Assembly (NCBI GenBank): GCA_003644175.1
Contig: QNBS01000007.1
Coordinates: forward strand, 1 to 16,182
Origin: Planctomycetota bacterium
Lineage (GTDB): Bacteria > Planctomycetota > Phycisphaerae > Sedimentisphaerales > Anaerohalosphaeraceae
Direction of reading: 5' to 3'
Length of the DNA: 16,182 bases
Part shown: piece by piece, positions 403 through 16,182 of the stretch
Numbering within the stretch: position 1 is the first letter of the stretch
Layout: each line of letters starts with the position of its first letter
Position numbers and translations under genes: made by a program
Notes under the pieces: generated by a model
What the model was told of the DNA's origin: nothing
The model's database searches: none
What the model saw: only the letters and a program-made list of their open reading frames with translations

Positions 403-1314
403 ATGCAGATAAGAACTCTCGGACGAACAGGACTGAAAGTAACAAGACTGGGCTACGGCGCGATGGAGTTGCGCGGCAGGCGCATCTGGGAGGGGCGCCC
501 GATCACCGGTCGCCAGGCCGAGACAATCCTCAATGCCGTCCTTGACGGCGGCATCAATTTTATCGACACTTCGTATGATTACGGACTGAGTGAAGAGTTT
601 ATCGGTGAATTTATTGCTCACCGAAGAGATGAATACTATCTTGCGACCAAGTGCGGGTGCACCGTTGTTTATAAGGGCCCGCGCGACGAGACGCCCCACG
701 TCTGGACCGGGGCAAATCTCATGGACAACATCGAAACGAGCCTCAAGAGACTCAAAACCGACTGTGTCGATATCTGGCAACTGCACAATCCCACGGTCGA
801 AGATGTCGAGCGAAACAACCTGCTCGACGTTATGGACCGCGTAAGGTCGCAGGGCAAGGCCCGCTGGCTCGGTATCTCGACCACATTACCGTTTATCGAC
901 CGGTTCCTGGAATGGGATTTCTTTGATGTCTTCCAGGTCCCGTACTCGGCGATGCAGACTGAGCATGCCGATTCGATTACTAAAATCGCCCAACGAGATA
1001 TCGGCGCCGTCATCCGGGGAGGAATCGCGCAGGGCGAACCCGGCATTTCCTACAAAGGCCAAAGAGAACGCTGGCTGCCGTGGCACAAGGCCGAGCTGGA
1101 CCAGTTGCGGGATTTCGGTGAGAGTCCTACGGAATTTCTCTTGAGATTCACACTGTCGCATCCGGACGTGCAGACGGTGATCGTCGGAACCGTCAATCCC
1201 GCCCACCTCGCAGAGAATGTCAAAGCAGCCGATGCCGGCCCGTTGTTCCGCGACGTCTATTACGAAGCAAAACGAAAACTCGAAGCCGTAGCACACGGCC
1301 TGACAGCGGTCTGA
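403..1314 (+). CDS. Aldo/keto reductase
   Basis: This is a 303-residue cytoplasmic NAD(P)H-dependent oxidoreductase of the aldo/keto reductase superfamily, normal in length for the (beta/alpha)8 barrel. The N terminus has the typical RTLGRTGLKV.RLG.GAM signature. The catalytic tetrad is visible: Asp55 and Tyr60 in FIDTSYDYGLSE, Lys83 in LATKCG, and His128 in QLHNP. The late motif TVIVGTVNPAHLAENV is the usual cofactor-phosphate region. The ATG at 403 has AGGGGG 6 nt upstream. The substrate cannot be read from sequence. The gene stands alone on the plus strand and converges with the DUF4139 pair, leaving 38 bp between stop codons and no obvious terminator hairpin. Confidence 0.93.
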   Translation: MQIRTLGRTGLKVTRLGYGAMELRGRRIWEGRPITGRQAETILNAVLDGGINFIDTSYDYGLSEEFIGEFIAHRRDEYYLATKCGCTVVYKGPRDETPHVWTGANLMDNIETSLKRLKTDCVDIWQLHNPTVEDVERNNLLDVMDRVRSQGKARWLGISTTLPFIDRFLEWDFFDVFQVPYSAMQTEHADSITKIAQRDIGAVIRGGIAQGEPGISYKGQRERWLPWHKAELDQLRDFGESPTEFLLRFTLSHPDVQTVIVGTVNPAHLAENVKAADAGPLFRDVYYEAKRKLEAVAHGLTAV

Positions 1315-1352
1315 GCCGGCTTGAAAAGAATCCGCACGCCGTCGATTCGCTG

Positions 1353-2696
1353 CTATCGTCGCCAATCTTCCCGGCGCGTGCCGTGATAAGTCCGAAGCAC
1401 ATATTGGAATTGCTTTTTGGTATGCGGATCGAGCAATATCGTGTACTTGACCGTCTTGAGATCGTCCTTTTCGTACTTGCCGAAATCGCCGGAATTGTCC
1501 AAATCCCAGTATGAGGTCTTGAAGTTTCGCTTGATCTCGAGTTTGACGGCGATGTCCCGCGTATTGCGGACCTCGACCTTAAACGTGCGAACCTCGTCCC
1601 AGCCGGAAATGTTACGCCGACGGTCAAACTTGTAGTTGGCTGTCTCATAGGCCATCAGTTTCGGTTCGACCACCACATCGGACACACCGCCGAGATTTAA
1701 CTCCACATCTTCATCCACCGGAATGTACTTAAACGACGACTGCCCGGTATATGCCAGATGCTGCTCGTCGTCGACGTTTCGGTAGACCTTGAGCAGCCCG
1801 CCGGGAATCGGCGTCTCGCCCAGGTTGTGCTCGGTATCGTTCTTAAAGCTCAAAAACCGCACCACGCTTCGCCCGTAACGTTCTTCCTCGTATTTGTACA
1901 GGTTTATGACCGCAACCTCGTCAACGTCAAAACTCGGCAGACGTTTCGACCAGCCGTTGGCGATCGTCTCGGCGCCCTCGATCGTATAGAGGAAGTATTC
2001 GCTGAGGCCTTCCTTTTTTACTTCCTTGATTTCGGCAGCGGCGTATGCAATCTCCGCCATAGACGCCTTGGCCTTCATTAGCATATCACGCGGTCTTGCC
2101 GCTGCATCCCCGCTAACCGGTCCGGGCCCCTGGATCGGGCTGCCGTAGGCGTGCTGCCTGCGGGCGAGATCGGCGATTCGGTCAAGAATGTGAACCTTAC
2201 CCACGATCAGCCGCGTCTGGGCATTGCCATAGTCCTCGCCACTGTTGTTCGTTACCCGCACGTAACCCTGCAGGCGCATCGTTTTTTCGTTTTCGGTCAG
2301 TGTGCCCATATAAAAGGCCCGCCATGTGAGACCGCTGGTAAGGTACGTGATCTCCACGGGCGCCTTGCCCGAGACCTGGCTCTTGATGTTCCACAGCCCG
2401 AGGTTCCGCACGCGCGGCGGATACGTCAAATCCATGATGTCAATCTCGCCTGCATGGGCCTTGGGCAGCATTTCCAGACTCGTCGGGTCGATCAGCGTAT
2501 TCGCCCACGAAAACTGCAAGCTGTTCATACCCTCTTTAAGCGTAAGAGGCCTGCTCTCACGCACCAACGTCAAATCCGCGGAGTTATAAATCGTAAGCTG
2601 CGTGCTCTCGCGCTCGGGCAGCGTCGACAAATCGACCTTCGCCCACGCGCTGCAGCTGACCGCAATGATCATGGTCGTCAACATTACACGTTTCAT
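1353..2696 (-). CDS. Exported DUF4139-domain protein, paralogue 1
   Basis: This 447-residue protein has a Sec signal peptide with likely cleavage after AWA at residue 19, so it is probably periplasmic or outer-membrane facing. From about residue 100 onward it matches the DUF4139 pattern, including EITYLTSGLTWRAFYMGTL and VTNNSGEDYGNAQTRLIVG. No catalytic residues can be assigned, because the family has no established biochemical function. It shares LPER, an LTL..G.N...FSW block and a YPP motif with the upstream gene, so the two are paralogues. The ATG at 2696 has an excellent ribosome-binding site, AAAGGAG, 7 nt upstream. It is probably cotranscribed after the 2847-3992 gene, although a hairpin repeat lies in the 150-bp gap between them. 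Confidence 0.85.
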   Translation of the reverse strand: MKRVMLTTMIIAVSCSAWAKVDLSTLPERESTQLTIYNSADLTLVRESRPLTLKEGMNSLQFSWANTLIDPTSLEMLPKAHAGEIDIMDLTYPPRVRNLGLWNIKSQVSGKAPVEITYLTSGLTWRAFYMGTLTENEKTMRLQGYVRVTNNSGEDYGNAQTRLIVGKVHILDRIADLARRQHAYGSPIQGPGPVSGDAAARPRDMLMKAKASMAEIAYAAAEIKEVKKEGLSEYFLYTIEGAETIANGWSKRLPSFDVDEVAVINLYKYEEERYGRSVVRFLSFKNDTEHNLGETPIPGGLLKVYRNVDDEQHLAYTGQSSFKYIPVDEDVELNLGGVSDVVVEPKLMAYETANYKFDRRRNISGWDEVRTFKVEVRNTRDIAVKLEIKRNFKTSYWDLDNSGDFGKYEKDDLKTVKYTILLDPHTKKQFQYVLRTYHGTRREDWRR

Positions 2697-2712
2697 GGTA
2701 TCGCTCCTTTAA

Positions 2713-2744
2713 CTTGTCATTCCCACAATTCGCTTGTCATTCCC
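2713..2744. repeat. Tandem 12-bp direct repeat, 20-bp period
   Basis: CTTGTCATTCCC occurs at 2713-2724 and again at 2733-2744, where the second copy is the start of the 91-bp hairpin repeat. It may be the remnant of a partial second element or of slippage next to the insertion. Confidence 0.6.
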
Positions 2745-2823
2745 GCGAAAGCGGGAATCCAGCATAAAACAGCTTCCGCCGCAGGCGGTTTCCTGTTTCT
2801 TGCACACGTGGCTAAAAAGTTAC
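2733..2823 (+). repeat. 91-bp dispersed hairpin repeat, copy A
   Basis: This segment matches 13290-13380 in reverse complement over 91 bp without gaps, with 12 mismatches by hand alignment (about 87%). It contains a perfect 8-bp stem, ATTCCCGC/GCGGGAAT, closed by a GAAA loop (2739-2758). A second, compound hairpin follows: AAACAG (2767-2772), CCGCC, loop GCA, GGCGG, then CTGTTT (2793-2798). The first hairpin resembles the widespread REP-like elements whose translation yields spurious peptides such as WIPAFAGMT. It lies between the two DUF4139 genes. Confidence 0.85.
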
Positions 2824-2846
2824 CATTACTGTTGATTTGTCCGATA

Positions 2847-3992
2847 CTACCTGACATTCCGTCGATGATAGTGCATCTCCAGTTCCTTGACGGCAGGTCC
2901 GTCGTCGGTCCGTGCGGGCAGCTCGATCTCAAATTCCAGCGTATATGCGTCCTTGCGATTGTACTTCATGTTGCATTTTTCCATATCCCACTGGCCGGGT
3001 ATATGCTGGATCATGGTCAAGGCCGCCGGTGAGTCCTTGAAGTTCTCGATCTTGGCGGTAATGAGTTCGTCGGTGTCGTAGAGAACCACCTTGCCGGCAT
3101 TGTTCTTGCGCAGATTGATCTTCGTGTCCCGCATCTTCTTCTGCGTAACGACAATATCCCTGCTGTCGCCGATATAGAGCTCGGTCTTCTCGCCGACCGG
3201 CACGAGGGCGGTATTGTCCTCACCTAAGAATATCGTGCTCTCATGCCCGTCGTCCTGGAAGATTCTCACCTTGCCGCCCGACAGTGCAAACTCGCCCAGG
3301 CCGCTGTCGGCATTGTTGACGATGCGATAGCTCACCGGGATGCCCACATTCTTGTTGTCCAGCTTCTCCGGGTCCCAGGGCAGCTTCGCCGAATCCCACG
3401 TCCATATCTTCGTGATCGGAACCTCGGGCGACTTCAAAAAGAGCATCCGCTTGGTCTCTTCGTGATCGATACCCTGCTCGAACGCCTCGCCATAATCCAG
3501 AAGCACCCGAGCTTCCTCAAAATCCTCACCGGAGAAATTGCGAAGCACAAGGTAGCTCCTCAGGTCCACCTTCGTCTCCTTCTTGTCGGCTATCGCCTTG
3601 TAGGCCACCAGCCGGTCGATATTGCTCAGCAGGTAGCTGATCCGGACCGTCTCGGCGAAATCGCCGTCGCCGGCGATCTCCCAGACAAGAGCGGCCTCAT
3701 TGGGTGGATAGCTCACATTGAGCAATCTTACCTCGTCGGGGTGGTCCAGAACCGTCAGCCGGATCGAGTCGGCATCGATACTGACCCCCTTCCACGAAAA
3801 ATCCACTTTATTTGGACCTTTCTGCAGCGTCAGCACCCGCTCTTCCTCGATCAGCGTGGCGTTCGGGTTGTCCAGCCGGATCACCGTCGCCGCACGCTCC
3901 GGCAGCGCCACCAGCTTAATCCGCGCCTCGGCCGCACCGCACACCGCCAGCAACACAAGCACCCAAACAACATTTTTCGTTTGCTTCTTCAT
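2847..3992 (-). CDS. Exported DUF4139-domain protein, paralogue 2
   Basis: This is a 381-residue protein. A frame extending to 4100 exists, but the ATG at 3992 is preferred because TTAGGAG lies 8 nt upstream and a signal peptide begins exactly there (KK, a hydrophobic core, then AEA before RIKL). The mature part starts with a LVALPERAATV block and carries the same LTLQKGPNKVDFSW and SYPP motifs as the downstream paralogue. A DUF4139-like segment follows (VRISYLLSNIDRLVAYKAI, LRNFSGEDFEEARVLLDYG). The two copies differ substantially, so the duplication is old. It should be the first gene of a two-gene unit. Function is unknown; a cell-envelope location is inferred from the signal peptide. Confidence 0.83.
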   Translation of the reverse strand: MKKQTKNVVWVLVLLAVCGAAEARIKLVALPERAATVIRLDNPNATLIEEERVLTLQKGPNKVDFSWKGVSIDADSIRLTVLDHPDEVRLLNVSYPPNEAALVWEIAGDGDFAETVRISYLLSNIDRLVAYKAIADKKETKVDLRSYLVLRNFSGEDFEEARVLLDYGEAFEQGIDHEETKRMLFLKSPEVPITKIWTWDSAKLPWDPEKLDNKNVGIPVSYRIVNNADSGLGEFALSGGKVRIFQDDGHESTIFLGEDNTALVPVGEKTELYIGDSRDIVVTQKKMRDTKINLRKNNAGKVVLYDTDELITAKIENFKDSPAALTMIQHIPGQWDMEKCNMKYNRKDAYTLEFEIELPARTDDGPAVKELEMHYHRRNVR

Positions 3993-4465
3993 AATTCTGT
4001 CTCCTAAAATCTGTTGAATCCCAATAATGTTTTTCTTTTTCGTTTTTTCTCTGCACCCTCTGTGGCTATTTACTTTCCCGCCGCGTCCCGTGGGCGTCAA
4101 TCAGGCTTTTATCGGTACTATCCATCAAAGCTTTTCACCTGTCTCTCAGTATTCGACAATTATACACCCCCTCCGGTTGACAAAAAAAAAGCTCTCATCC
4201 AATAAAGTTGTAATTTTTTTGAGGATTTTCTTGCAACTCCTTTGAGTTTAACGCTTTAGGCTTCCGGCATAGTGTGATATATGTTGATTTGAGGAAACAG
4301 GAAATGTTTTGTTGTAAGCCTCTAACGGGGTAAAATGGGAAATGTCGGCTAAGACAAATATTACAATCCGAAAAGAGTGGAAATTCCTCGATTCCGGTCT
4401 GCCAGGCCCGGTTACCATACAATCGAACATTCATTAAGCAGCGATAAAACAGTAAGGGCAAGCGT
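3993..4465. other. Divergent intergenic region between DUF4139 and URO-D genes
   Basis: No convincing gene is visible in this AT-rich stretch. On the plus strand TTGACA (4177-4182) is followed after 18 bp by AATAAA (4201-4206), a possible promoter for the gene at 4466 with a leader of about 250 nt. On the minus strand TATAAT (complement of 4159-4164) has only a T-rich -35 region 17 bp upstream and could serve the DUF4139 pair. Short open frames in 4195-4461 have no ribosome-binding site or recognisable sequence. I looked for a cobalamin riboswitch before the URO-D gene and saw no B12 box. Confidence 0.4.
4177..4206 (+). promoter_or_regulatory. Candidate promoter for the URO-D-like gene
   Basis: A consensus -35 (TTGACA, 4177-4182) is followed at 18-bp spacing by AATAAA (4201-4206), which matches the -10 consensus at four positions but lacks the final T. 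The spacer starts with an A8 tract. Confidence 0.35.
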
Positions 4466-5449
4466 ATGAATCATGTTGAGAGATTTCGAGCGGTGATGAA
4501 GTTTCAACAAGTCGATCGCCTGCCTCGCTGGGAATGGGCGATGTGGTGGGATGAAACCATAAAACGCTGGCACGGCGAAGGTTTGGACGCTAATCTGACG
4601 GACATATTCGATATACACGAATACTTCGACTTGGACCCTTACAAGCAATACTGGTTCAGCACCACCGAGGCCACCATCGAAGCCGCCCAGCACCATGTCG
4701 AGGGAATTGTTTCAAATATGGACGATTACCTCAAGCACACCCGTTACTTATATCCGGATCACGGCAAAGCCATTGAAGGAATGTCGCCATGGCTCAAACG
4801 TCAGCAAAAAGGCCAGGCGGTCATCTGGATCACGCTGGAGGGATTTTTCTGGTTTCCGCGAACTATGATGGGCTTTACCGAGCTGATGCTGGCTTTTTAC
4901 GATCAGCCCGAGCTGCTCCACAAGATCAACAAGGACCTGCTCGCATTCAACCTGGAAATACTGGAGCAGATCGCAAAGATCGGCAATCCGGTCTTTATGA
5001 CCATCGCCGAAGATATGTCTTACAACAACGGCCCAATGATCTCTCGCGCGATCATGGACGAGTTTCTCTCGCCTTATTATGCAAAGCTTCTTGCCCGCGC
5101 CAAAGAGATGGACATGCTTACGATAGTAGATACCGACGGTGATGTCACATTGCTTGTCCCGTGGCTTCTTGACAACGGCGTCGAAGGAGTATTGCCGCTT
5201 GAGCGACAGGCAGGTGTAAACGGTATGGCGTTGCGGGAAAAATTTCCAAAGCTTGGAATGATCGGACATTTTAACAAGATGGTAATGGCCGACGGCGAAC
5301 GGGCGATGCGCGCCGAATTCGAGAGGCTGACGCCCCTGATGGCTTCGGGCGGATTTATACCGAGCGTCGATCACCAGACGCCGCCGGGCGTATCGCTCGA
5401 GGACTATCGCATTTATCGAAAGTTGCTGGATGAGTACACCGGCCGATAA
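4466..5449 (+). CDS. Uroporphyrinogen decarboxylase (URO-D)-like family protein
   Basis: This 327-residue protein belongs to the URO-D/MtaA-CmuA methyltransferase fold. It opens with RFRAVMKFQQVDRLPRWEW, has the central IVDTDGDV segment where relatives carry HSDG or HCDG, and ends with GFIPSVDHQTPPGVSLEDY. True HemE enzymes have a different N-terminal arginine-rich motif, so haem synthesis is unlikely. Corrinoid:CoM-type methyltransferases of this fold bind zinc through His and Cys, but this protein contains no cysteine at all. A standard thiol-methyl transfer mechanism therefore looks doubtful. The ATG at 4466 has AAGGG 7 nt upstream. The gene stands alone, with no corrinoid protein or other methyltransferase component in the window. 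The exact substrate is unknown. Confidence 0.8.
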   Translation: MNHVERFRAVMKFQQVDRLPRWEWAMWWDETIKRWHGEGLDANLTDIFDIHEYFDLDPYKQYWFSTTEATIEAAQHHVEGIVSNMDDYLKHTRYLYPDHGKAIEGMSPWLKRQQKGQAVIWITLEGFFWFPRTMMGFTELMLAFYDQPELLHKINKDLLAFNLEILEQIAKIGNPVFMTIAEDMSYNNGPMISRAIMDEFLSPYYAKLLARAKEMDMLTIVDTDGDVTLLVPWLLDNGVEGVLPLERQAGVNGMALREKFPKLGMIGHFNKMVMADGERAMRAEFERLTPLMASGGFIPSVDHQTPPGVSLEDYRIYRKLLDEYTGR

Positions 5450-5620
5450 TCAACGGTCCGAGGGGCCTTTGCAGCCGATAAGAAACCGACCAAGGAGATC
5501 GGCGTTGAAATGGTGTGGAGAAGGTTTTTTCAAATATTCCCCTTTTGATCGTAATCCTGCTCGGCGCATTTACAACCAACTGTGTTTGGTGTTTATGGCG
5601 GAAGACAATAGTTGCAGTGG

Positions 5621-6070
5621 TCAGCGTTTCGGCTTTTTTTGTTTTAATCTTCGAAGGAACTTGAGATCCTCGATATCCTTTGGTCGCCCCGCAGCCTGTT
5701 TCATTTTGATCAGGTCGTCAAGAGATGCGAACCAGACGAAAACATCGCCGAACTTAGCCTTTACCCTGTTCGTCCAGATACGATCAAAAGTGACGCCTTT
5801 TACAAACGGGTGAATGTCAGTCTCAACTAAATATTGCCGTATCAGCACCTTTTTGGTGAGGAGGTCATCGACGGTTATATCAGAGACGTCGTAGCCAAAT
5901 GACTTGAGTGCCTCGTGTGTCCGTCCGGCATTAGGCTCGTCAGGTTTGATAAACAGATCAATATCGAGAGTTGCCCGCGAATATCCGTGGACAGGGAAAG
6001 CCGTTGCCCCGATGATCACAAAGCGAACCTTATGTTCTTTTAGTAACTTGAGTAGATTTTCGACGTCCAT
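5621..6070 (-). CDS. Nucleotidyltransferase of the AbiEii/DUF6036-like (MNT) type
   Basis: This 149-residue protein has the minimal nucleotidyltransferase pattern. GATA (residues 21-24) corresponds to the G-S/A loop, the paired acidic residues are Asp36 and Asp38 in TLDIDLF, and the third carboxylate is Asp85 in ETDIHPF. Near the C terminus are DLIKMKQAAGRPKD, a common signature of this family, and a lysine-rich tail. Proteins of this type are often toxins or tRNA/protein nucleotidylating partners in two-gene modules. No HEPN or AbiEi-like partner is present. The partner is instead the short gene upstream, which overlaps it by 41 bp. There is no clear ribosome-binding site before the ATG at 6070, consistent with translational coupling. 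The locus looks less GC-rich by eye than its neighbours, which would fit acquisition. Confidence 0.8.
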   Translation of the reverse strand: MDVENLLKLLKEHKVRFVIIGATAFPVHGYSRATLDIDLFIKPDEPNAGRTHEALKSFGYDVSDITVDDLLTKKVLIRQYLVETDIHPFVKGVTFDRIWTNRVKAKFGDVFVWFASLDDLIKMKQAAGRPKDIEDLKFLRRLKQKKPKR

Positions 6071-6236
6071 TTCGATTCGATAATAATGCCATTTCGCGGC
6101 TTTTCTGCAACATCATTTGAAAGCGCTGTTGAGTAGTCAAAGAGGCCAGGTAATCCAACTCGAAGTCGATTTCCCGGCTCTCATTGTGCTTGTCCAGTTT
6201 CAAAACCGCCTTATTGCCTGTCAACCTGTGAGCCAT
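6030..6236 (-). CDS. Small partner protein of the nucleotidyltransferase, putative antitoxin
   Basis: This 68-residue reading frame runs directly into, and overlaps by 41 bp, the nucleotidyltransferase gene on the same strand. The N-terminal half is acidic and helical-looking (ESREIDFELDYLASLTTQQ). It is followed by RFQMMLQKSREMA and a strongly basic tail (NRNGRRKSTQVTKRT). Short upstream genes of this size commonly precede this nucleotidyltransferase type, so an antitoxin or targeting role is inferred from position only. The ATG at 6236 has no clear Shine-Dalgarno sequence. The sequence resembles no family that I can name. Confidence 0.6.
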   Translation of the reverse strand: MAHRLTGNKAVLKLDKHNESREIDFELDYLASLTTQQRFQMMLQKSREMALLSNRNGRRKSTQVTKRT

Positions 6237-6626
6237 AACAGTATTCTATGAGTCCGGTCTCGGTGTGTCAAGGGGCGGGTGGTGCACTTTCCCCCCCCCC
6301 GCAAACAAGAAGGGCAGAGGCGCCATTTCCCAGGCCCACCCATCAGATCAAGATCTGGAAAATACGGCCCTGCCCACAAACTATTTCTACTCTAAACGCT
6401 GCGAATCACTTTAAGTTTGTTGCATTTCTCTTCACAGCCCGTTCAGAGGAAAGGAGACGGATTCAATCAACAACCTTTCCAGCGACCGCCTTGCATCCGC
6501 TTATTATATAGGGTCGCTTTAGGCCCTCGGTATAACGTTTTTTTTGTGCAGTTTCCTCATTTTTATCGGATGCCCTCTAATTCGCAATGGTACAGTTTTT
6601 GGGGGTCATGCCAGTCTTTGGAAGGG
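6237..6626. other. Gene-poor region with a C10 homopolymer
   Basis: No supported gene lies here. The stretch contains a run of ten C at 6291-6300, flanked by GGGTGG (6278-6283) and a matching CCACCC near 6336-6342. Two 7-bp inverted repeats also occur (6481-6487 with 6512-6518, and 6493-6499 with 6567-6573). A plus-strand frame at 6248-6511 has low-complexity Pro/Arg-rich sequence and no ribosome-binding site, so it is not called. Confidence 0.5.
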
Positions 6627-8393
6627 TCAGGTTAGGCGGGTTTTTATTAGTTCTGTTGCTTTTTCGAGGGCTTGGGGGAGGTTTTTTTGGTTTTTTCCTC
6701 CTGCTTGCGCCATTTGAGGCTTACCTCCTCCTCGGCCATCTACTATCGGGGCGATTTTCTTTATCAGGTCGCCGGCTTTTAGGCCTTTTTTTATGAGGTC
6801 GTCGGTCATGGCGGCCAAGAGCATTACTTTGTCGTCGCCTTCGGGGATGCCTAAGACTATTGCTGCTGATTTTGCTTTTTTCTTGAGGCTGTCGATTGCC
6901 CGGCGGGCCTGGTCGATGGGGCATGGTGAAAGGGCGCCTGTGATGATGGATGTTTCGCCGATTTTTTCGCACGTTTTCAGGAGTTGTGCGGATTCTGCTA
7001 TTGTGTCGGTTCCGCCTTTTTTTGCGGCGGATTTTAGGTCTTTGGCGAGTTTTTTGTTGTCGGCGAGGAGCTTTTTGACTCGGCCGGTGATCTGTTCGGG
7101 CGGGGCCTTTAGCAGGGTTGTGAGGTTATCGACAATTTTGCTTCTTTCGAGGAGGTAGTCGACGAGTCCCGCACCGGTGAGGGCGGTTATTCTGCGGACG
7201 CCGGCTGAGATGCTCTCTTCCCTGATGATCGCAAAGCCGCCGATTTGGCCGGTGCTGTCGAGGTGCGTGCCGCCGCAGAACTCGCGGCTGAAGGCCTGTG
7301 TAATTTGTGCGTCGTTGGCTGCGCCGATGCCGACTACGCGGACGCGCTGTCCGTATTTTTCTCCGAAGAGCGCCATTGCGCCGAGTTTCTTCGCCTCGTC
7401 GATCGGCATGACGACACATGTAACAGCGACATTCTCGTCAATCTTTTTACGAACAAGCCCTTCAACCTTTTTGAGTTCTTCAGTCGAAAGTGCCTTCGGA
7501 TACGTAAAGTCGAACCGCAAGTGCGTCGAACTGACCTCTGAACCCTTTTGGTGCACCGATTCCCCCAACACCTGCTGCAGAGCCCACTGCAACAAGTGGG
7601 TGGCTGTATGATTCTTCTGCGTGTCCTGGCGGAATTTGCCTACAGTTGCCGTTACTTCCTGCCCCGCTCGAATGGTTCCTCCCTGGAGTTTGCCTGAGTG
7701 GATCACACAATCAGCAATCTTGCTCGTCCTCTCTACCTCAAAACACCAATCCGGCCCTTCGATTTTTCCGGTATCGCCAACTTGACCGCCTGCTTCGGCG
7801 TAAAAGCAGGTATGATCCAGTATTAAGCCAACGTCTTTGTCGGTCTGTGAGAAATCGCCTTCCTTGATAAAATCACCAGACGTCGTCCAGCCAACAACCT
7901 TGGCCGAACATGTGTTGGTTTCGTACTTGAGCGAATCGTCCGTCATCGGAAGCTGCACACCTGACAATGCGCTCTTGAGGGAATCAGCCTTGCGCGAGGA
8001 ACGCGATGTGATGCGCTGAATCTCCATGAGTACATCGAATTTTTCCGTATCAACCTTCAGGCCTCGCTCGCGGGCCATCAGTTGTGTGAGGTCGAGCGGG
8101 AATCCGAAGGTGTCGTAGAGTTGGAAGGCGTTTTCGCCGCTGATTGTCTTGTCGGGTCTCTTTTGGGCGGTTTCGGCGGCGGCGGTGAATATCTCAAGGC
8201 CTCTGTCGAGGGTTCTGCCGAAGGCGGCTTCTTCGGCTTCGACGACGGTTGCGACGAAGTCGGCTCTCTCGGCGACTTCGCCGAACGCATCGCCCATGGT
8301 GTCTGCGAGTACGCCGACGAGTTTGTACATGAAGGGCTCGTGGGCGTCGAGGACTCGGCCGAACCTTGCGGCGCGTCGGAGTATGCGACGCAT
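6627..8393 (-). CDS. alaS: Alanyl-tRNA synthetase, C-terminal part (editing and C-Ala domains)
   Basis: This 588-codon frame is the remainder of AlaRS. It begins inside the tRNA-recognition helical domain (MRRILRRAARFGRVL). It continues through the beta-barrel segment with FYAEAGGQVGDTG at about 198-209 and the editing site HTATH (262-266) with its partner CGGTH (373-377). It ends in a coiled-coil segment and the C-Ala region containing VDGRGGGKPQMAQAGG. All editing zinc ligands are present. The frame is the same as that of the upstream fragment, and the 33 codons between them (8394-8492) are still conserved AlaRS sequence. The ATG at 8393 is therefore not a natural gene start: it has no well-spaced ribosome-binding site and would discard conserved residues. 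Treat it as one gene with 8493-9347, interrupted by a stop. Confidence 0.93.
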   Translation of the reverse strand: MRRILRRAARFGRVLDAHEPFMYKLVGVLADTMGDAFGEVAERADFVATVVEAEEAAFGRTLDRGLEIFTAAAETAQKRPDKTISGENAFQLYDTFGFPLDLTQLMARERGLKVDTEKFDVLMEIQRITSRSSRKADSLKSALSGVQLPMTDDSLKYETNTCSAKVVGWTTSGDFIKEGDFSQTDKDVGLILDHTCFYAEAGGQVGDTGKIEGPDWCFEVERTSKIADCVIHSGKLQGGTIRAGQEVTATVGKFRQDTQKNHTATHLLQWALQQVLGESVHQKGSEVSSTHLRFDFTYPKALSTEELKKVEGLVRKKIDENVAVTCVVMPIDEAKKLGAMALFGEKYGQRVRVVGIGAANDAQITQAFSREFCGGTHLDSTGQIGGFAIIREESISAGVRRITALTGAGLVDYLLERSKIVDNLTTLLKAPPEQITGRVKKLLADNKKLAKDLKSAAKKGGTDTIAESAQLLKTCEKIGETSIITGALSPCPIDQARRAIDSLKKKAKSAAIVLGIPEGDDKVMLLAAMTDDLIKKGLKAGDLIKKIAPIVDGRGGGKPQMAQAGGKNQKNLPQALEKATELIKTRLT

Positions 8394-8492
8394 GACGTAG
8401 CCGCGACCCTCGTTGGAGGGGGTTACGCCGTCGGTAACAGCGAATGTCAGCGAGCGAATGTGGTCGGCGATGACGCGGAATGCGCTGTCGGT

Positions 8493-8495
8493 TTA
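8493..8495 (-). other. In-frame TAA interrupting alaS
   Basis: The codon is TAA in ...CTC GAA AGC TAA ACC GAC AGC... on the minus strand. Relatives usually have Lys or Glu immediately before the TD..F/L-RVIADHIR motif, so AAA-to-TAA or GAA-to-TAA is a single-base change. The frame is maintained on both sides. Confidence 0.95.
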
Positions 8496-9347
8496 GCTTT
8501 CGAGGCTGGATGTGTACTCGTGGCCGGTCAGGTCGGCGATGGCGTCGATGATGGGCATGAACAGGTCGGTGTCGTAATTGCTTTGCTTGTTCTGGAGGAC
8601 GGCGGCGATTCGCTCGAGCCCTGCGCCGGTGTCGATATATCTTGCGGGGAGTTTTTCCAGTGTGCCGTCGCCGAGGCGGTTGAACTGGATGAATACGAGG
8701 TTCCACAGTTCGATGAATCTCGCACAGCCGGAGTTTACGGCGCACTTGTGGCCGGCGACGTGTTTCCTGTCGCACATGTCGGGCCCGAGATCGATATGTA
8801 TCTCACTGCACGGCCCGCACGGCCCGGAGGCGCCCATCTCCCAGAAATTGTCCTTCTTGCCGAAATAGAGGACCCGCTCCTTTGGGATGGGTGTAACTTT
8901 CGTCCAGAGTGCGGCCGCCTCATGGTCCGGGTCGCTGCCGTCGGTTTGATCACCTTCATAAACCGTTGCCCACAGTTTGTCCGGGTCTATAGAATAGACT
9001 TTTGTCAGAAGTTCCCACGCCCACTCGATGGCTTCGGCCTTGAAGTAATCGTCGAAGGACCAGTTGCCCAACATCTCGAAAAAGGTGTGGTGATAGGTGT
9101 CCAGGCCGACTTCTTCGAGGTCGTTGTGCTTGCCGCTGACGCGGATGCACTTCTGGCTGTTGGCGGCGCGGGTGTAGTCGGGCTTTGTCATGCCGAGAAA
9201 GATGTCCTTAAACTGGTTCATGCCGGCATTGATAAACAGCAGCGTCTCGTCGCCGATGGGAACAACGGGCGCACTGGGGACAAACTGATGGCCCCTGTCC
9301 TTGAAGAAGTCAATGAACGTACTTCTGATTTCTTTTGATGTAAACAC
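8493..9347 (-). CDS. alaS: Alanyl-tRNA synthetase, N-terminal catalytic part
   Basis: This frame encodes 284 residues of a class II synthetase, which charges tRNA-Ala with alanine in the cytoplasm. Visible landmarks are the N terminus with [14 protein letters not shown], the substrate-binding [15 protein letters not shown], motif 2 ([20 protein letters not shown], about 84-103), [14 protein letters not shown] and motif 3 (DTGAGLERI, about 239-247). The whole aminoacylation core is thus present, but it ends at a TAA in the linker before the tRNA-recognition domain. Start is GTG at 9345-9347, with AAAGG 6 nt upstream. If the stop were sense, the protein would be 906 residues, close to the usual 870-900. 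Expression probably comes from the promoter at 9416-9444. Confidence 0.93.
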
Positions 9348-9415
9348 GCTTTACCTTTACGATCAATACAACGGTTCTTGTCGGCGACCATGCATAAAAG
9401 TCCGCCACAGGACAG

Positions 9416-9444
9416 ATTATACAGAATCCGGATGAAAAAGTCAT
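9416..9444 (-). promoter_or_regulatory. alaS promoter
   Basis: On the minus strand ATGACT (9439-9444) is followed by a 17-bp spacer and a perfect TATAAT (9416-9421). The predicted start is near 9409, leaving a leader of about 62 nt before the GTG at 9347. Confidence 0.55.
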
Positions 9445-9463
9445 GGGAAATTTGCGGATTCTG
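9422..9463. promoter_or_regulatory. Perfect 9-bp inverted repeat bracketing the alaS -35 element
   Basis: CAGAATCCG (9422-9430) and CGGATTCTG (9455-9463) are exact reverse complements, with 24 bp between them. The inner arm lies in the promoter spacer directly beside the -10 box and the outer arm lies upstream of the -35 box. The arms start 33 bp apart, about three helical turns, which suits an operator for one protein assembly. It lies outside the predicted transcript, so an RNA hairpin role for alaS is unlikely. Confidence 0.5.
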
Positions 9464-9498
9464 CTTTGTGCTTTCCAGAGTGTATTATTGGAGATTGC

Positions 9499-9601
9499 TT
9501 GACATATCCGCCCAAATGCATTATGAGCAAGAAGAACAGCCGAATCTTATGAGGGATTTTTTGCCCCATTGCTGCATGAGGAATTGGAATAATTCCTTTT
9601 T
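9499..9601 (+). ncRNA. Candidate small RNA (promoter plus intrinsic terminator)
   Basis: TTGACA (9499-9504) is followed by a 17-bp spacer and TATGAG (9522-9527). About 50 bp further, AGGAATT (9579-9585), a 5-nt loop and AATTCCT (9591-9597) run into a T5 tract (9597-9601), which is a plausible rho-independent terminator on the plus strand. The predicted transcript is about 68 nt (9534-9601). The -10 box lacks the highly conserved final T and the stem is AT-rich, so both signals are modest. The rest of the 9348-9643 gap shows no supported coding sequence. Confidence 0.35.
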
Positions 9602-9643
9602 ACACTACGACAGGCTATTTGCCGGACGCATTCATTCGAGGTA

Positions 9644-10681
9644 CTATTTCCGTATGTAAGCGTCGGCGCCGCTTGTCTTGACAAATTCGAGTTTCTTGTC
9701 CGCCGGGATGATTATGGCCTCGGCGTTGTTTATGGATTCGATCAGTCCCAGGCCTTTGGCCCGCCCCATCACGCTGACCGCCGTCGCCAGTGCGTCGGCG
9801 TCCATTGCCCTGGCGGCGATAACGGTAACGCTTGTCAGTTCGCCTGCGCTTGCCGTTGTCGCCGGGTCGATGATATGGCTGTATCGCCGGCCATCCACCA
9901 CCACGAATCGCCGGTAATCGCCGCTGGTGGCGATAGCGGTATCGGACAGCTTGAGCACGAGAAGATAGTCGCTCACACCCGACGGGGCCTCCAGCCCCAC
10001 GCGCCAGATGTTGTCGAACTTGGGCGAGGCGCCGAAACAGCAAATGTCCCCGCCGACATCGACCAGTCCGCCGGCGGCGCCGGCCTTTTTCATTTCCTCG
10101 ATCGCCCGATCGACACCATAGCCCTTGGCGATAGCCCCCAAATCCAGTTTCATACCAACAACGGCAAAACGAACCGTCTTGTTCTCCTCATCCAGGATGA
10201 GCTTTTCGTAGCCTACTCCGGCCCTGGCTTCAGCGAGCTCCTCTTCGCCGGGTTTTTTACCGTCCTTCGCCGCCCTTCGCCACAGTTCGACAACCGGACC
10301 GACGGTGATATCAAAGGCGCCTTGTGTTTTCCTGCTGTAATCAACCGAAGCCTTCAAGACCTCGAAGAGTTCGTCGCTGACCTTTACCGGCCCGGCAAAC
10401 GCATCCCGGTTGACAACCGACAACTCCGAATCGGCCTTGTAATCGCTCATCATCTCGTCCACTTCGACGAGCTTGTCAAAAGCGGCCTCTATACTCGCCT
10501 TGATCGTCTCGTCATCGGAGGCAACCGCCGTAATGTTGGCAAACGTCCCCATCACAAGCCGACCGCCGCCGAACCCGGATTGCAGTTGAGGCCCTTTGGG
10601 CGCCGCCAGATTGCGGACAAGCAGCGCGACAACGACAATAATCGCAATGGAAACCAGCATCCGAACAGTCTTGTTATTCAC
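9644..10681 (-). CDS. apbE: ApbE-family FAD:protein FMN transferase, membrane-anchored
   Basis: ApbE proteins attach FMN to threonine residues of exported flavoproteins such as Rnf and Nqr subunits. Here an N-terminal membrane anchor (MLVSIAIIVVVALLV) is followed by the ApbE domain. Visible motifs are VMGTFANITA, AFDITVGPVVELWR, LDLGAIAKGYGVDRAIE, GGLVDVGGDI, HIIDPATT, and the late DADALATAVSVMG with its metal-binding Asp/Thr. There is no lipobox. I prefer the GTG at 10681 (345 residues) because AAAGG sits 5 nt upstream. A TTG at 10696 would add five residues but has a poorly spaced ribosome-binding site. No flavoprotein target or Rnf operon is in the window. A promoter at 10714-10742 gives a leader of about 26 nt. 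Confidence 0.93.
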   Translation of the reverse strand: MNNKTVRMLVSIAIIVVVALLVRNLAAPKGPQLQSGFGGGRLVMGTFANITAVASDDETIKASIEAAFDKLVEVDEMMSDYKADSELSVVNRDAFAGPVKVSDELFEVLKASVDYSRKTQGAFDITVGPVVELWRRAAKDGKKPGEEELAEARAGVGYEKLILDEENKTVRFAVVGMKLDLGAIAKGYGVDRAIEEMKKAGAAGGLVDVGGDICCFGASPKFDNIWRVGLEAPSGVSDYLLVLKLSDTAIATSGDYRRFVVVDGRRYSHIIDPATTASAGELTSVTVIAARAMDADALATAVSVMGRAKGLGLIESINNAEAIIIPADKKLEFVKTSGADAYIRK

Positions 10682-10713
10682 ACGCAAACCTTTCAATCCC
10701 TGCAGAAAGCCTG

Positions 10714-10742
10714 ATTCTAAATAGTCGCCATAATTTATTCAA
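10714..10742 (-). promoter_or_regulatory. apbE promoter
   Basis: On the minus strand TTGAAT (10737-10742) is followed by a 17-bp spacer and TAGAAT (10714-10719), matching the consensus at four and five of six positions. The predicted start is near 10707. Its -35 box overlaps that of the divergent promoter. Confidence 0.6.
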
Positions 10743-10766
10743 CAAATCTTTCTATTGTCGTATAAT
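10738..10766 (+). promoter_or_regulatory. Promoter of the radical SAM gene, predicted leaderless transcript
   Basis: A perfect TATAAT (10761-10766) lies 17 bp after TTCAAC (10738-10743), a weak -35 box. A start about 7 nt after the -10 box falls at 10773, exactly at the GTG chosen as start codon. Confidence 0.5.
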
Positions 10767-10772
10767 ACGCCT

Positions 10773-12566
10773 GTGAACAGCAAAGATGTGCAACTATTAA
10801 GCCGGCGCCTCGACAGGGAGTTTTTGCCCTGCGTGCGTCGGCCGGGCCGATACATCGGCGGAGAGGTCAACCAGATCAAAAAAGACCTGTCCAAATGCGA
10901 TGTGAAAGTGGCGATTTGCTTTCCCGATGTGTATGAAATCGCGATGAGCCATACGGGTCTTGCGATCATCTACGAAGTCGCCAACCGCATCGCCGGCGTC
11001 GCGGCCGAGCGTGTGTTCTGTCCCTGGACCGATGCCGAACAGGTCCTCCGCGACAAGGATATCCCGCTTTTTACGCTTGAATCCAAGGCCGCCGTAGGCG
11101 ATTTTGACATCGTCGCCTTCAGCCTCAACAACGAACTTTGCTATACCAACATGCTCACCATGCTGGACCTGGCGGGTCTGGCCCTCAGATCGAGCGACCG
11201 CGCCGAAGACGACCCCCTCGTCATTGCCGGCGGACAGGTCTCAAACTCCTGCGAGCCAATCGCAGAATTTGTGGATATGTTCGTCCTCGGCCACGGCGAA
11301 GAAGCAACCGTAAAACTGCTGGACCTGTTTCGACAACAGAGGAATTCCAAAACCTCGAAAAAGGATTTTCTCCTGGAAGCGGCAAAACGATTCAACTTCG
11401 TTTACGTTCCGTCGCTATATACCTTCGAGTATGAAGGCGACACAATAGCGGCTTTCAAAGCCGGTCGCTCGGATCTGCCCACACGATTTGAAAACGCCGT
11501 CGTTGACGACCTGGACAGCTCGGCGGTCCCGCTCAAGCCGATCGTGCCTTTCGTCAAGGCGATTCACGAACGCATCAGCATCGAGATTATGCGCGGCTGT
11601 CCCGGCCGATGCCGCTTCTGCCAGGCAGGTTTCTGTCGTCGCCCCATCCGGTATCGCAGTGTTGACAGGGTTCTCGAAATCGCAAAACAAAACTATCTGG
11701 CCACAGGTTTTGACACCGTAAGCCTGCTCAGCCTGTCAACAGCCGACTACCCCGACCTCGAAGAACTCGTCACCCGGCTGCAGGAATACTTCCAGCCGCA
11801 TCATGTGGGAATCTCACTGCCAAGCCTCAAAGTCAAGCAGCAGCTCCGGCTCCTGCCGAAAATGCTTACCTCCGTTCGCAAGAGCGGACTGACCATCGCA
11901 GTCGAGGCAGCCGGCGAGAAACTCCGCAAAGTCATAAACAAACCCATCAGCGACATCGACCTCTTTGCAGGCGTCCGGGCAGCTTACCAGGCCGGATTCC
12001 AGCGGCTCAAACTCTATTTCATGGTGGGCCTGCCCGGCGAGACACAAGAAGATATCGCCCGGATTGCCGAGCTTTCGCACACCTTGGCGCGACTCAGAAA
12101 AGATGTCGACGGCAAAGTCGCACAAATCAACGTCGCCGTGAGCTGGCTTGTGCCCAAGCCCCACACACCGTTCGGCTGGCTGGGCCAAAAAGACAGGGAG
12201 TATTTTGAAAACGCAAAGGATCTGATCCTTCGGCAAAAGCGAAAGCTCAACGCCCGCTTCCTGCAGTTCAAGTTTCACAACATTGAAAACAGCATCCTCG
12301 AATCGGCAATCGCAAGGGGCGACCGCCGCATGGCGGACGTCATAGAAACGGCATGGCGAAACGGCGCAAAATTCGACCTGTGGGGTGAATGCTTTGACTA
12401 TAGCATTTGGACCGAGGCATTCGCCGAACACGGCGCCGCCGCCGACACCGCCGCACAAAGGAGTTTTGCCGCCGATGAGATCCTGCCCTGGCAGCATCTG
12501 GGCGGTCCGGAAAAGGATTACCTTCTAAAACACTTCACTAATGCAATCGAAGCGGCCGATCAGTGA
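10773..12566 (+). CDS. B12-binding radical SAM protein, TIGR03960 type
   Basis: The protein has about 597 residues. An N-terminal conserved block (LP.V.RPGRYIGGEVNQIKKD) is followed by a Rossmann-like B12-binding-type region with FPDVYEIAMSHTGL and VLGHGEEA. The radical SAM core then carries the 4Fe-4S motif CPGRCRFCQ (Cys 276, 280 and 283 from this start). The C-terminal part ends with a PWQHL..GPEKDYLL block. Relatives commonly sit beside, or are fused to, a DUF2344/TIGR03936 protein, which is absent here. I prefer the GTG at 10773 over the TTG at 10755, because the TTG lies upstream of the predicted transcript start. No Shine-Dalgarno sequence precedes either. The biochemical reaction is not established. 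It overlaps the LOG gene by 7 bp, tail to tail. Confidence 0.9.
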   Translation: MNSKDVQLLSRRLDREFLPCVRRPGRYIGGEVNQIKKDLSKCDVKVAICFPDVYEIAMSHTGLAIIYEVANRIAGVAAERVFCPWTDAEQVLRDKDIPLFTLESKAAVGDFDIVAFSLNNELCYTNMLTMLDLAGLALRSSDRAEDDPLVIAGGQVSNSCEPIAEFVDMFVLGHGEEATVKLLDLFRQQRNSKTSKKDFLLEAAKRFNFVYVPSLYTFEYEGDTIAAFKAGRSDLPTRFENAVVDDLDSSAVPLKPIVPFVKAIHERISIEIMRGCPGRCRFCQAGFCRRPIRYRSVDRVLEIAKQNYLATGFDTVSLLSLSTADYPDLEELVTRLQEYFQPHHVGISLPSLKVKQQLRLLPKMLTSVRKSGLTIAVEAAGEKLRKVINKPISDIDLFAGVRAAYQAGFQRLKLYFMVGLPGETQEDIARIAELSHTLARLRKDVDGKVAQINVAVSWLVPKPHTPFGWLGQKDREYFENAKDLILRQKRKLNARFLQFKFHNIENSILESAIARGDRRMADVIETAWRNGAKFDLWGECFDYSIWTEAFAEHGAAADTAAQRSFAADEILPWQHLGGPEKDYLLKHFTNAIEAADQ

Positions 12567-13258
12567 TGATAGACGCTCTTCTTCAGACCAGGAGGCTGCT
12601 GCAGCCCGCCGCGACCGTTGGTCTCTTTGAACTCGACAATAATCTTCGCCGCCTCGGCCGGGTCGTCCACAACGGTGAAAACATCGAGGTCTTCGGGCGA
12701 TACATAACCATGCTTATCTAACATGGTATTTTTTATCCAGTCCAGGAGACCCTGCCAATACTCGCTGACCATGAGAATGACCGGGAAATAGACCTGCTTG
12801 AGCGTCTGGATGAGAACCAACGACTCAAAAAACTCATCCATCGTGCCGAATCCGCCCGGCATGACAACAAAACCGTTGGCGTACTTGAGGAACATCACCT
12901 TGCGGCAGAAGAAATACCTGAAGTGAAGCGACAGATTCTGATACTCGTTGGGGGTCTGCTCCACGGGCAGCTCGATATTGAGCCCGATGCTGCGCCCGCC
13001 CGCCTCAAATGCGCCCCGATTAGCGGCTTCCATAATCCCGCCGCCGCCGCCGGTAATGACCGCAAAGCCGGCCTTGGCAATCTCATACGAGGTTTTCCTC
13101 GCCAACTCGTAATACTCATCGCCCTCGGGCGTCCTTGCCGAGCCGAAAATCGATACGGCCGGCCCAACGCTGGCAAGTTCATCGAAACCCTCGACAAATT
13201 CCGCCATGATCCTGAATATCCGCCACGGCTCTTCGGTGGACAGGCTTAATGCACTCAT
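12560..13258 (-). CDS. LOG-family protein (TIGR00730, cytokinin-activating type fold)
   Basis: This 232-residue cytoplasmic protein has the LOG/lysine-decarboxylase-like Rossmann fold. Members hydrolyse nucleoside 5'-monophosphates to base and ribose 5-phosphate. Visible motifs are VSIFGSAR (residues 35-42), the glycine-rich TGGGGGIMEAANRGAFEAGG (about 69-88), the conserved FFCRKVMF, and the catalytic PGGFGTMDEFFE (134-145) with Glu142. Many bacterial members are labelled 'lysine decarboxylase', which the motif does not support. The ATG at 13258 has GGAG 6 nt upstream. The last 7 bp overlap the convergent radical SAM gene. It lies downstream of endonuclease III on the same strand, but with a repeat in the 183-bp gap. 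Confidence 0.9.
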   Translation of the reverse strand: MSALSLSTEEPWRIFRIMAEFVEGFDELASVGPAVSIFGSARTPEGDEYYELARKTSYEIAKAGFAVITGGGGGIMEAANRGAFEAGGRSIGLNIELPVEQTPNEYQNLSLHFRYFFCRKVMFLKYANGFVVMPGGFGTMDEFFESLVLIQTLKQVYFPVILMVSEYWQGLLDWIKNTMLDKHGYVSPEDLDVFTVVDDPAEAAKIIVEFKETNGRGGLQQPPGLKKSVYHH

Positions 13259-13289
13259 GAACTACTCCATTCAACTATTTTCAGAATAT

Positions 13290-13380
13290 GTGACATTTTG
13301 GTCATGTGTAGAAAAAACAGGAAACCGCCTGCGGCGGAAGCTGTTCTATTCTGGATTCCCGCTTTCGCGGGAATAACAAA
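13290..13380 (-). repeat. 91-bp dispersed hairpin repeat, copy B (inverted)
   Basis: This is the reverse complement of 2733-2823 with 12 mismatches and no gaps. The GAAA-loop stem is intact (13355-13374). In the second hairpin one outer A-T pair has become G-T when read on the minus strand, so it could still pair as G-U in a minus-strand RNA. It lies between the endonuclease III and LOG genes. The flanks show no clear target-site duplication. Confidence 0.85.
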
Positions 13381-13441
13381 GGGTAGTCGCACCCGGCTAC
13401 AGTATCATTATCGTCCCAAACAGACGTCGACATAAGCCAAA

Positions 13442-14125
13442 TCACCACAGTTCGGGCCTGTTCGCCGCCGGACAGTGCGGCGCAATCGGACAATTCGGAC
13501 AGTCCGGCTTGCGGGCCTTGCAGATATTACGACCGTGCCATATCAGCAGATGACTGAACAGCGACCAGCCGCCCCACTTTCGCTTCGGAACAATCTCCAT
13601 CAGGTCAAACTCCAGTTTCACCGGATCGGCGTTTTCCGACAGCCCCAAACGACGGCTCAGGCGAATCACGTGCGTGTCGCAGGTGATTCCGGGCGTATCA
13701 AAAGCGTTGCCGAGAATCACGTTGGCCGTCTTCCGCCCAACGCCCGGAAGCGATGTCAACTCTTCCATCGTACGCGGCACAACACCATCGAATTCCTCCA
13801 CCAGCATACGGCAGCACTTCTGAATGTTCCTCGCCTTGTTCCGATAAAAACCCGTCGAACGAATCTCATCTTCAATCTGCGAGTTCTTCGCCTTCAGAAA
13901 GTCGCCAGGCCCCTTGTATTTCACAAACAGGTCCCTGGTTACAATATTCACACGCACATCCGTGCACTGGGCGGACAAAATCGTCGCGATCAGCAACTCG
14001 AAGGCATTGTCATGATGCAAAGCGATCCCGGCGTCAGGATAGGTCTTCTTCAGTATCGGAAATATCTTCTGAACCCGCTGCTTCGCCACAGCCGCATCCA
14101 CTTTTATCTTCTTTCGTCCGGCCAT
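13442..14125 (-). CDS. nth: Endonuclease III, DNA glycosylase/AP lyase
   Basis: This 227-residue base-excision repair enzyme removes oxidised pyrimidines and cleaves the abasic site. The helix-hairpin-helix motif LPGVGRKTANVIL contains the catalytic Lys132, and the catalytic Asp150 lies in CDTHVIRLSRRLGL. The C-terminal 4Fe-4S cluster ligands follow the exact C-x6-C-x2-C-x5-C spacing (Cys 202, 209, 212, 218). ILSAQCTD near residue 49-56 is also typical. Nothing essential is missing. The ATG at 14125 has GAGG 5 nt upstream. No DNA-repair partner is nearby. It probably heads a minus-strand transcript toward the LOG gene, unless the repeat between them acts as a transcript end. Confidence 0.95.
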   Translation of the reverse strand: MAGRKKIKVDAAVAKQRVQKIFPILKKTYPDAGIALHHDNAFELLIATILSAQCTDVRVNIVTRDLFVKYKGPGDFLKAKNSQIEDEIRSTGFYRNKARNIQKCCRMLVEEFDGVVPRTMEELTSLPGVGRKTANVILGNAFDTPGITCDTHVIRLSRRLGLSENADPVKLEFDLMEIVPKRKWGGWSLFSHLLIWHGRNICKARKPDCPNCPIAPHCPAANRPELW

Positions 14126-14432
14126 ACCTGCCTCACTGACTCACCGATCATACCACCCGATAATACGCTGCCTGTCAGTCTAATACATCCTGCACCCGCC
14201 TGCAAACAAAACCATACTGAATTGAAGACACTTTGCTCAATACCGCGACCCGCCTCATCCCGACCGGATTTTGTAGGGGCGAACCCCTGTTTTTTCCGCA
14301 CATGCCTAAAATGTCGCCTATTTTTCAGTTGCCTTTCCAAAAAACCCCGATTAACATTCAGCTTTTTACCGGCATTGCCGAACTAATAAAGATAACGTGC
14401 CCAAACGATAAGCTGTATTGTGTGAGATATTC
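14126..14432. other. Divergent intergenic region between nth and the GH130 gene
   Basis: No gene is supported. It holds a short hairpin with a T tract at 14275-14296 and the near-palindrome CGGCA-T-TGCCG at 14370-14380, a possible operator about 50 bp before the GH130 start. No good -35/-10 pair was found for either gene. Confidence 0.4.
14275..14296 (+). terminator. Terminator-like hairpin upstream of the GH130 gene
   Basis: AGGGG (14275-14279), a CGAA loop and CCCCT (14284-14288) are followed by G and seven T (14290-14296). No plus-strand gene ends just before it. It may be an attenuator in a GH130 leader, the end of an unseen short RNA, or a dispersed GTAGGGGCGAAC-type repeat. The stem is only 5 bp. 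Confidence 0.3.
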
Positions 14433-15392
14433 ATGGATTCTTTCAACCGTGCCAAACTGGCCGCAAACTTGTTCAGCAGGTATGAGGGCAATCCGATTTT
14501 GACGGCGCAAAAGTGGCCTTACCCGATTAATTCCGTTTTCAACCCCGCCGCAATCAGGATCAATGGCGAAGTCTTACTCCTCAATCGCGTCGAGGAACTC
14601 CGCGGTTTTTCACATCTGACCTGCGCCAGGAGCAAAGACGGGCTGACCGACTGGGTCATCGACGAAAAACCGACCATGAAGGCCGACCAGAGCAACAAGG
14701 AAGAGCGGTGGGGCCTGGAGGATCCGCGTATCGTCTGGCTCGAAGAGCAAAAGCAGTTCGCTATCACATATGTGTCGTTCAGCGAAGGCGGCCCCATCGT
14801 CTCGCTGGCTATCACGCGCAATTTCAAAACATTCGCCCGTCTGGGCGGCATGCTCCCACCGGAGGACAAAGACGCATGTCTGTTCCCGAGGCGATTCAAC
14901 GGAAGATTCGCCCTTATCCACAGGCCACTTGTACGCGGCGAAGCCCATATATGGCTCAGCCTCTCTCCTGACCTCAAACACTGGGGCGACCACAGGGTAC
15001 TGCTCAAGACCAGGCCCGCCTTCTGGGACGGGGCGCGGATCGGACTGGCCTGCCAGCCAATCGAATTGCCCGAGGGCTGGCTCATACTCTATCACGGCGT
15101 CCGCGTCACCACCGCCAGCCAGATATACCGCACAGGAATGGCCCTTCTGGACAGGGACGAACCGTGGCGAGTCCTGCGAAGATGCGAGGAATGGGTGCTC
15201 GGCCCGAGGGAACCTTATGAACGCGTGGGCGATGTCAATGACGTTACATTCGTCACCGGCGGAGTCATCATGCCCGAAACCAATCAGCTTTACATCTATT
15301 ACGGCGCAGCAGACGACAAAGTAGCTGTAGCAATGGCCGACATGGACCGAGTACGCGAATACATAATGGCCTGCCCCGAAGTCAACGAGTAG
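14433..15392 (+). CDS. GH130 family glycoside phosphorylase (beta-mannoside type)
   Basis: This 319-residue protein is a five-bladed beta-propeller GH130 enzyme. The family phosphorolyses (some members hydrolyse) beta-mannosides, releasing mannose 1-phosphate. Visible landmarks are GNPIL, NSVFNPAAI, LLLNRVEELRGFSHLTCARS, the core GLEDPRI (94-100) with the conserved Asp98, KDACLFPRR, DGARIGLACQPI, GWLILYHGV, and the final LYIYYGAADDKVAVAMADM. No signal peptide is present, so it acts in the cytoplasm. The ATG at 14433 is preferred; a TTG at 14418 would add five residues. It is followed 239 bp later by a sulfatase on the same strand, suggesting a sulfated or mannose-containing glycan pathway. 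Exact linkage specificity cannot be read from sequence. Confidence 0.92.
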   Translation: MDSFNRAKLAANLFSRYEGNPILTAQKWPYPINSVFNPAAIRINGEVLLLNRVEELRGFSHLTCARSKDGLTDWVIDEKPTMKADQSNKEERWGLEDPRIVWLEEQKQFAITYVSFSEGGPIVSLAITRNFKTFARLGGMLPPEDKDACLFPRRFNGRFALIHRPLVRGEAHIWLSLSPDLKHWGDHRVLLKTRPAFWDGARIGLACQPIELPEGWLILYHGVRVTTASQIYRTGMALLDRDEPWRVLRRCEEWVLGPREPYERVGDVNDVTFVTGGVIMPETNQLYIYYGAADDKVAVAMADMDRVREYIMACPEVNE

Positions 15393-15634
15393 ACCCGCCG
15401 CGCAATCAGCCCCGAATCCGGCCAACTCGGCAGCGATTCCATATATAAGGAGATCGCAGAAGGCCTGTCCCAACCATGGAAAAACGGCATCGGAAAAGAA
15501 AAATATCGACAGTTCAAGGTGATTTTGGTACCCTTGCCGGTAATCCTGGCCCCGTCGAGGATGTGATGCGGTCGCAGCCGAAAAAGATACGCCAGGCTTT
15601 ACAAACCATTTATAAGAAAGTTGGAATGTTATGA
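15393..15634 (+). pseudogene. Decayed or small ORF between GH130 and sulfatase
   Basis: After the GH130 TAG the same frame stays open for 57 codons with coding-like sequence (for example IYKEIAEGLSQPW and GIGKEKYRQF), but without any start codon. A second frame starts at ATG 15476, encodes 52 basic residues including GDFGTLAGNPGPVEDVM, and ends in a TGA that overlaps the sulfatase ATG (ATGA). A single base added near 15515-15518 would join the two frames into one product (KYRQF then GDFGTLAG). This suggests the C-terminal remnant of a frameshifted gene. I cannot identify the family. A genuine 52-residue translationally coupled protein is the alternative. Confidence 0.3.
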
Positions 15635-16182
15635 ACCGACGTGAATTTATCAGAAATGCCGGCCTCAGTGCGGTATCACTGCCGATGGCCGGATGTTCGT
15701 TATCTTTTGCCGCCGGCAAGGGCTTAAAGCGACAAAAACCCAATTTGCTTTTCATCTGGACCGACGAGCAGCGGGCGGACACTATGGCCGCCTATGGAAA
15801 CACAAAGATACACACACCAAACCTGAACAAACTTGCCTCCGAGAGCTTTGTTTTCAAACGAACATATATCACTCAGCCGGTATGTTCGCCGTCCAGAACA
15901 TCGGTCATGACCGGACTTTGGCCGCATACTTCAGGGGTAATCAATAACAATATTCCGATAACCAGCCAGACGAAATGTCTTCCTGAAATGATCGATTCGC
16001 CTGAATACCAAACCGGATATATGGGTAAATGGCATCTCGGCGATGAGATTTTTGCCCAGCACGGTTTCGATGAATGGGTCGCAATCGAAGATGGGTATTA
16101 CAAGTATTACTCAAGCCCCGACAAAAAGCAGGCCAGGAGCGATTACTATCATTTCCTCATCTCACGCGGACATAAGCCCGAC
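15631..16182 (+). CDS. Sulfatase, family S1, N-terminal part (runs off the window)
   Basis: The first 184 residues are present and open to the window end. The N terminus MNRREFIRNAGL is a twin-arginine signal, and PMAGC places a possible lipoprotein cysteine at residue 22, so the enzyme is probably exported folded and perhaps lipid-anchored. The mature part starts with KPNLLFIWTDEQRADTM, containing metal ligand Asp45. The sulfatase signature CSPSR (Cys85-Arg89) marks the cysteine that a formylglycine-generating enzyme must convert. GKWHLG (132-137) supplies further active-site Lys and His. The ATG at 15631 has TTGGA about 6 nt upstream. It removes sulfate esters from a polysaccharide, substrate unknown, and may work with the GH130 gene. 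Confidence 0.92.
   Translation, partial: MNRREFIRNAGLSAVSLPMAGCSLSFAAGKGLKRQKPNLLFIWTDEQRADTMAAYGNTKIHTPNLNKLASESFVFKRTYITQPVCSPSRTSVMTGLWPHTSGVINNNIPITSQTKCLPEMIDSPEYQTGYMGKWHLGDEIFAQHGFDEWVAIEDGYYKYYSSPDKKQARSDYYHFLISRGHKPD

Follow-up and report, generated by a model that had tools for sequence, protein, structure and literature searches.

How an essential gene can carry a stop codon in the middle of its reading frame is the question raised by alaS, the gene for alanyl-tRNA synthetase (AlaRS), in the draft genome of an uncultured Planctomycetota bacterium. The stretch analyzed, hereafter the window, is 16,182 nucleotides long (assembly GCA_003644175.1, contig QNBS01000007.1, positions 1 to 16,182 of the forward strand). 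An initial annotation made from its letters alone had noted a lone in-frame TAA in an otherwise intact alaS. We consider it probable that the window holds a single, ordinary alaS in which the TAA is a wrong consensus base or a sporadic nonsense allele. Our analysis also revealed two features missed by that annotation: the gene appears to be a mosaic, which we regard as more notable than the stop itself, and a similar lesion occurs in another gene of the same draft.

A single in-frame stop in an alaS frame conserved on both sides

The alaS frame runs on the minus strand from a GTG start at 9347 to a TGA at 6627, and all of its 906 codons are sense codons except codon 285, the TAA at 8493-8495. 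When the two sides of the stop were scanned separately, the PF01411 match was found to be broken across it. The 5' part (8493-9347, minus strand; 284 codons and the TAA) encodes the catalytic domain and matches profile positions 1-264 (E = 1.1e-115), while the downstream piece matches positions 269-549, with tRNA_SAD and DHHA1 matches further along. PF01411, PF07973, and PF02272 occur in order within one frame, each above its cut-off, as in bacterial AlaRS; only the TAA departs from the one uninterrupted frame of such enzymes. Over 906 residues the translated read-through shares 82% identity with the unbroken alaS of a congener, which excludes a chance open frame, and DNA identity to the congener is 90.3% over 8023-9525.

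The 33 codons that follow the stop (codons 286-318; 8394-8492, minus strand) contain no ATG, GTG, or TTG, and the earliest possible restart is the ATG at 8393, codon 319, as the initial annotation had stated. The conservation it reported for this segment also holds: 32 of the 33 residues are identical to those in each of the homologues P0001-P0005. The part from the ATG at 8393 to the end of the frame (6627-8393, minus strand) comes next, and PF01411, PF07973, and PF02272 all match downstream of the stop. Of the highly conserved sites, 219 lie after the stop and 144 before it; 4 and 1 of these, respectively, are changed, and P0001-P0005 show 0-3 changes in the 219, so judged from these sites the gene appears free of decay downstream of the stop. 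One protein database entry, P0241, corresponds to the window's own downstream alaS piece (6627-8330; 567 residues, starting at codon 340) and belongs to a cluster of two sequences.

With 405 contigs and a completeness of 76.56%, the genome draft is fragmented; the largest of the 20 contigs listed is 21.9 kb. A search of this draft returned a single alaS match and neither a second nor a partial copy; the second alaS suggested by the initial annotation was thus not found in the 76.6% of the genome that is represented.

The stop is absent from relatives

An alaS match was obtained in all 59 genomes searched, this one included, and the stop occurs in this genome alone (0 of 58 relatives). The stop is therefore not conserved as would be expected of programmed read-through. 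The initial annotation had held that relatives without the stop would reduce it to an error or a strain mutation, both among its options, and by that standard it is one or the other. Across the order, alaS was matched in 154 of 161 genomes, and the rows listed show a stop in three: this genome (TAA), G087 (TAG), and G103 (TGA; its gene comes up as three matches). This count is a lower bound (at least 3 of the 154 matched genomes). In the G087 gene (L275:1310-4015) the lone in-frame stop, a TAG, interrupts the editing domain (LD*TCFYAE, the asterisk marking the stop) and does not coincide with codon 285; the stops across the order thus appear to be sporadic. In a sample of the phylum alaS was matched in 376 of 392 genomes, and among the matches listed only this genome has a stop.

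The alignment of 137 homologue rows informs on the residue at codon 285 and not on the absence of a stop, as its rows are open by construction. Lysine predominates (109 rows), followed by glutamate (11), arginine (6), aspartate (4), threonine (3), asparagine (2), and alanine (1); one wrong-frame row is gapped. The congener has lysine. The position lies in a region of variable length: a six-residue gap immediately precedes it relative to 3hxu_A, which we take to be the E. coli chain, and codon 285 itself is gapped relative to 1riq_A. The best homologues, among the best 120 of 8000, are 82-84% identical, and those relatives that are named bear the labels Planctomycetes, Sedimentisphaerales, or Phycisphaerales.

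The middle of alaS appears to be of other origin

Read through the stop, the protein is 94.4% identical to P0001 before the TAA and 77.7% identical beyond the first 33 codons after it. Relative to the congener DNA, nonsynonymous (dN) and synonymous (dS) divergence are 0.05 and 0.32 before the stop and 0.16 and 0.60 after it. Windowed identity places the drop in the middle of alaS, and a two-breakpoint fit against the congener delimits it to 7419-8054 (minus strand; 636 bases, codons about 432-643), with 59.6% nucleotide identity inside, 90.2% in the rest of 6600-9530, and a log-likelihood gain of 145. The proteins tell the same: against P0001-P0004, residues 1-425 are 90-95% and residues 650-906 are 88-91% identical, while residues 440-635 are just 54-55% identical. 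For this middle part the ten best other rows reach 61-64%. In trees of 121 rows the first and third parts group with P0001-P0005 (support 0.91 and 0.99), and the middle part falls outside the congener clade, with a branch length of 0.42 that is well above the median of 0.11.

A close donor was not found, the best match being 64% identical in the protein alignment (best 120 of 5270 hits) and, over the full segment, 60% among 161 genomes of the order, its own excluded. The segment is itself open and retains the motif HTATHLL (residue 580). Each join falls within a conserved tract, where exact matches with the congener extend to 22 bp at one join and 26 bp at the other; with the 28 other loci they reach at most 17 bp. 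These matches are compatible with recombination and mis-assembly alike. As far as identity and tree placement tell, 7419-8054 appears to differ in origin from the rest of alaS through recombination or a chimeric assembly. The description of alaS as otherwise intact thus stands for its frame and not for its descent. The mosaic does not account for the stop, because the TAA lies in the congener-like first part.

A rule for detecting such dips in identity flagged 3 of 25 stretches: alaS, L149:4857-7748, and, mildly, L144:9354-10700. At L149:4857-7748 congener identity falls from about 0.8 to 0.27 and recovers, and this stretch may be a further mosaic.

Other interrupted genes in the same draft

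Homology was used for stop finding because a codon-usage scan for in-frame stops proved too insensitive, missing even the alaS stop. Compared with the congener G001 (five of its frames were left out as queries), 4 of 25 matched stretches contained a stop, namely alaS, a sulfatase gene, and two that were set aside. The sulfatase (L203:10257-11708, on contig C24) has a lone in-frame TAG at 10782-10784 where the congener has tyrosine; apart from this codon its identity to the congener is 91%, and PF00884 matches flank the TAG. It is the only interrupted one of 40 sulfatase matches in the draft. Those set aside were L144:8343-9296, whose matching congener frame has no Pfam family, and L154:3177-3446, with 67% identity and a transposase below the cut-off as its sole Pfam match. 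One frameshift-like pair was seen in L143. The reverse comparison of draft frames with G001 gave 27 stretches, one of which had two stops. With G007 and an identity threshold of 35%, stops were seen in 5 of 74 stretches: alaS and four others with 36-43% identity. One of the four lies opposite the gene at window positions 12560-13258, and the remaining three are presumed to be wrong-strand frames. Comparison with the alaS loci of other relatives gave 3 stretches, with a stop in alaS alone. The contigs compared are the longest of the draft and so are not a random sample. As a separate observation, the 40 sulfatase-family matches occur in a draft only 76.6% complete, several of them consecutively on contig C15.

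Weighing the explanations

The single alaS match and the conservation on both sides of the stop would also be expected of a gene whose interruption is real and is overcome by read-through or a UAA-reading suppressor tRNA. An ochre suppressor reads TAG too, and would therefore also read the TAG of the sulfatase. However, neither a UUA nor a CUA anticodon, the former suggested by the initial annotation, was present among the 29 tRNAs found, a set from which the incomplete draft lacks several tRNAs. UAA remains a terminator: of 188 long frames in 21 contigs (mechanically called and not proven genes), 72 end in TAA, 57 in TGA, and 54 in TAG, and 5 run off their contigs. With TAA closing 72 and TAG 54 of the 183 closed frames, the annotation's argument against global reassignment is upheld. 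The RNA following the stop folds no better than shuffled sequences (z -1.02), no inverted repeat was found in 8300-8700, and the window has no Rfam match. With the stop also missing from relatives, we consider rescue very unlikely. Even less credible is a two-subunit AlaRS made by termination at codon 285 and reinitiation at the ATG at 8393. The stop does fall in a length-variable region, and the archaeal precedent, as far as the portion of PMC10036535 available describes it, is the Nanoarchaeum equitans enzyme, whose alpha and beta subunits are split within the tRNA-recognition domain. A start at 8393 would nevertheless drop residues 286-318, N312 among them. N312 and D412 align with chain residues 302 and 399 of 3hxu_A and, with the initiator methionine counted, would be the counterparts of N303 and D400, the E. 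coli residues described in that same portion as contacting G3:U70. The 33 codons are moreover conserved though they would stay untranslated, and none of the relatives has a stop there. This bears out the doubt already voiced in the initial annotation about a clean two-subunit enzyme.

A mis-joined contig or discarded copy, with a chimeric or decaying alaS here and the working one outside the recovered part of the genome, is unlikely, though less so than either of these. The foreign 636-bp middle is a second anomaly in the same gene, and the draft lacks about 23% of the genome. On the other hand, that middle is open and keeps HTATHLL, conserved sites are retained on both sides of the stop, and the draft shows no second or partial alaS match. 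We favor a single ordinary alaS in which the TAA, a sporadic single-base lesion with no function of its own, would be wrong or transient. A consensus error in the fragmented metagenome assembly is the likeliest source, ahead of a true nonsense allele carried by some of the population. Several observations weigh against this reading. No stop was found in 20 matches to PF00133 (0/7), PF00587 (0/5), and PF00009 (0/8), in the other 39 sulfatase matches, or, against G007 at 45% identity or more, in the other 33 of 34 stretches, alaS alone being interrupted. Since most checked matches are clean, errors are not rampant in the draft. Furthermore, with the best homologue just 84% identical, the species' own population is unsampled.

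Implications and comparison with known systems

As it stands, the locus is a warning that a single base can disrupt an essential gene in a draft genome. A real and fixed stop would make an essential synthetase dependent on read-through or on two pieces coming together, and a genuine mosaic would mean that DNA of a distant lineage had replaced a domain-sized part of an essential gene. We consider highly improbable the combination in which the organism survives with a TAA in its sole alaS, produces AlaRS through read-through or as two pieces, and has had the middle of that gene, reaching into the editing domain, replaced by DNA of another lineage.

Among known cases, the alaS stop most resembles the sporadic internal stops of draft genomes, which are single, unshared, and in conserved genes, as in G087, G103, and the draft's own sulfatase; on the assembled sequence we found no difference from these. 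The split AlaRS of Nanoarchaeum equitans, as portrayed in the accessible part of its description, is likewise interrupted between catalytic core and distal domains. The window alaS is instead one frame, and with a restart at 8393 neither piece would contain the asparagine that contacts G3:U70. With single-chain bacterial AlaRS the gene shares PF01411, PF07973, and PF02272, in order and in one frame, and homologues 82-84% identical; it differs from that enzyme in its in-frame TAA and its foreign middle.
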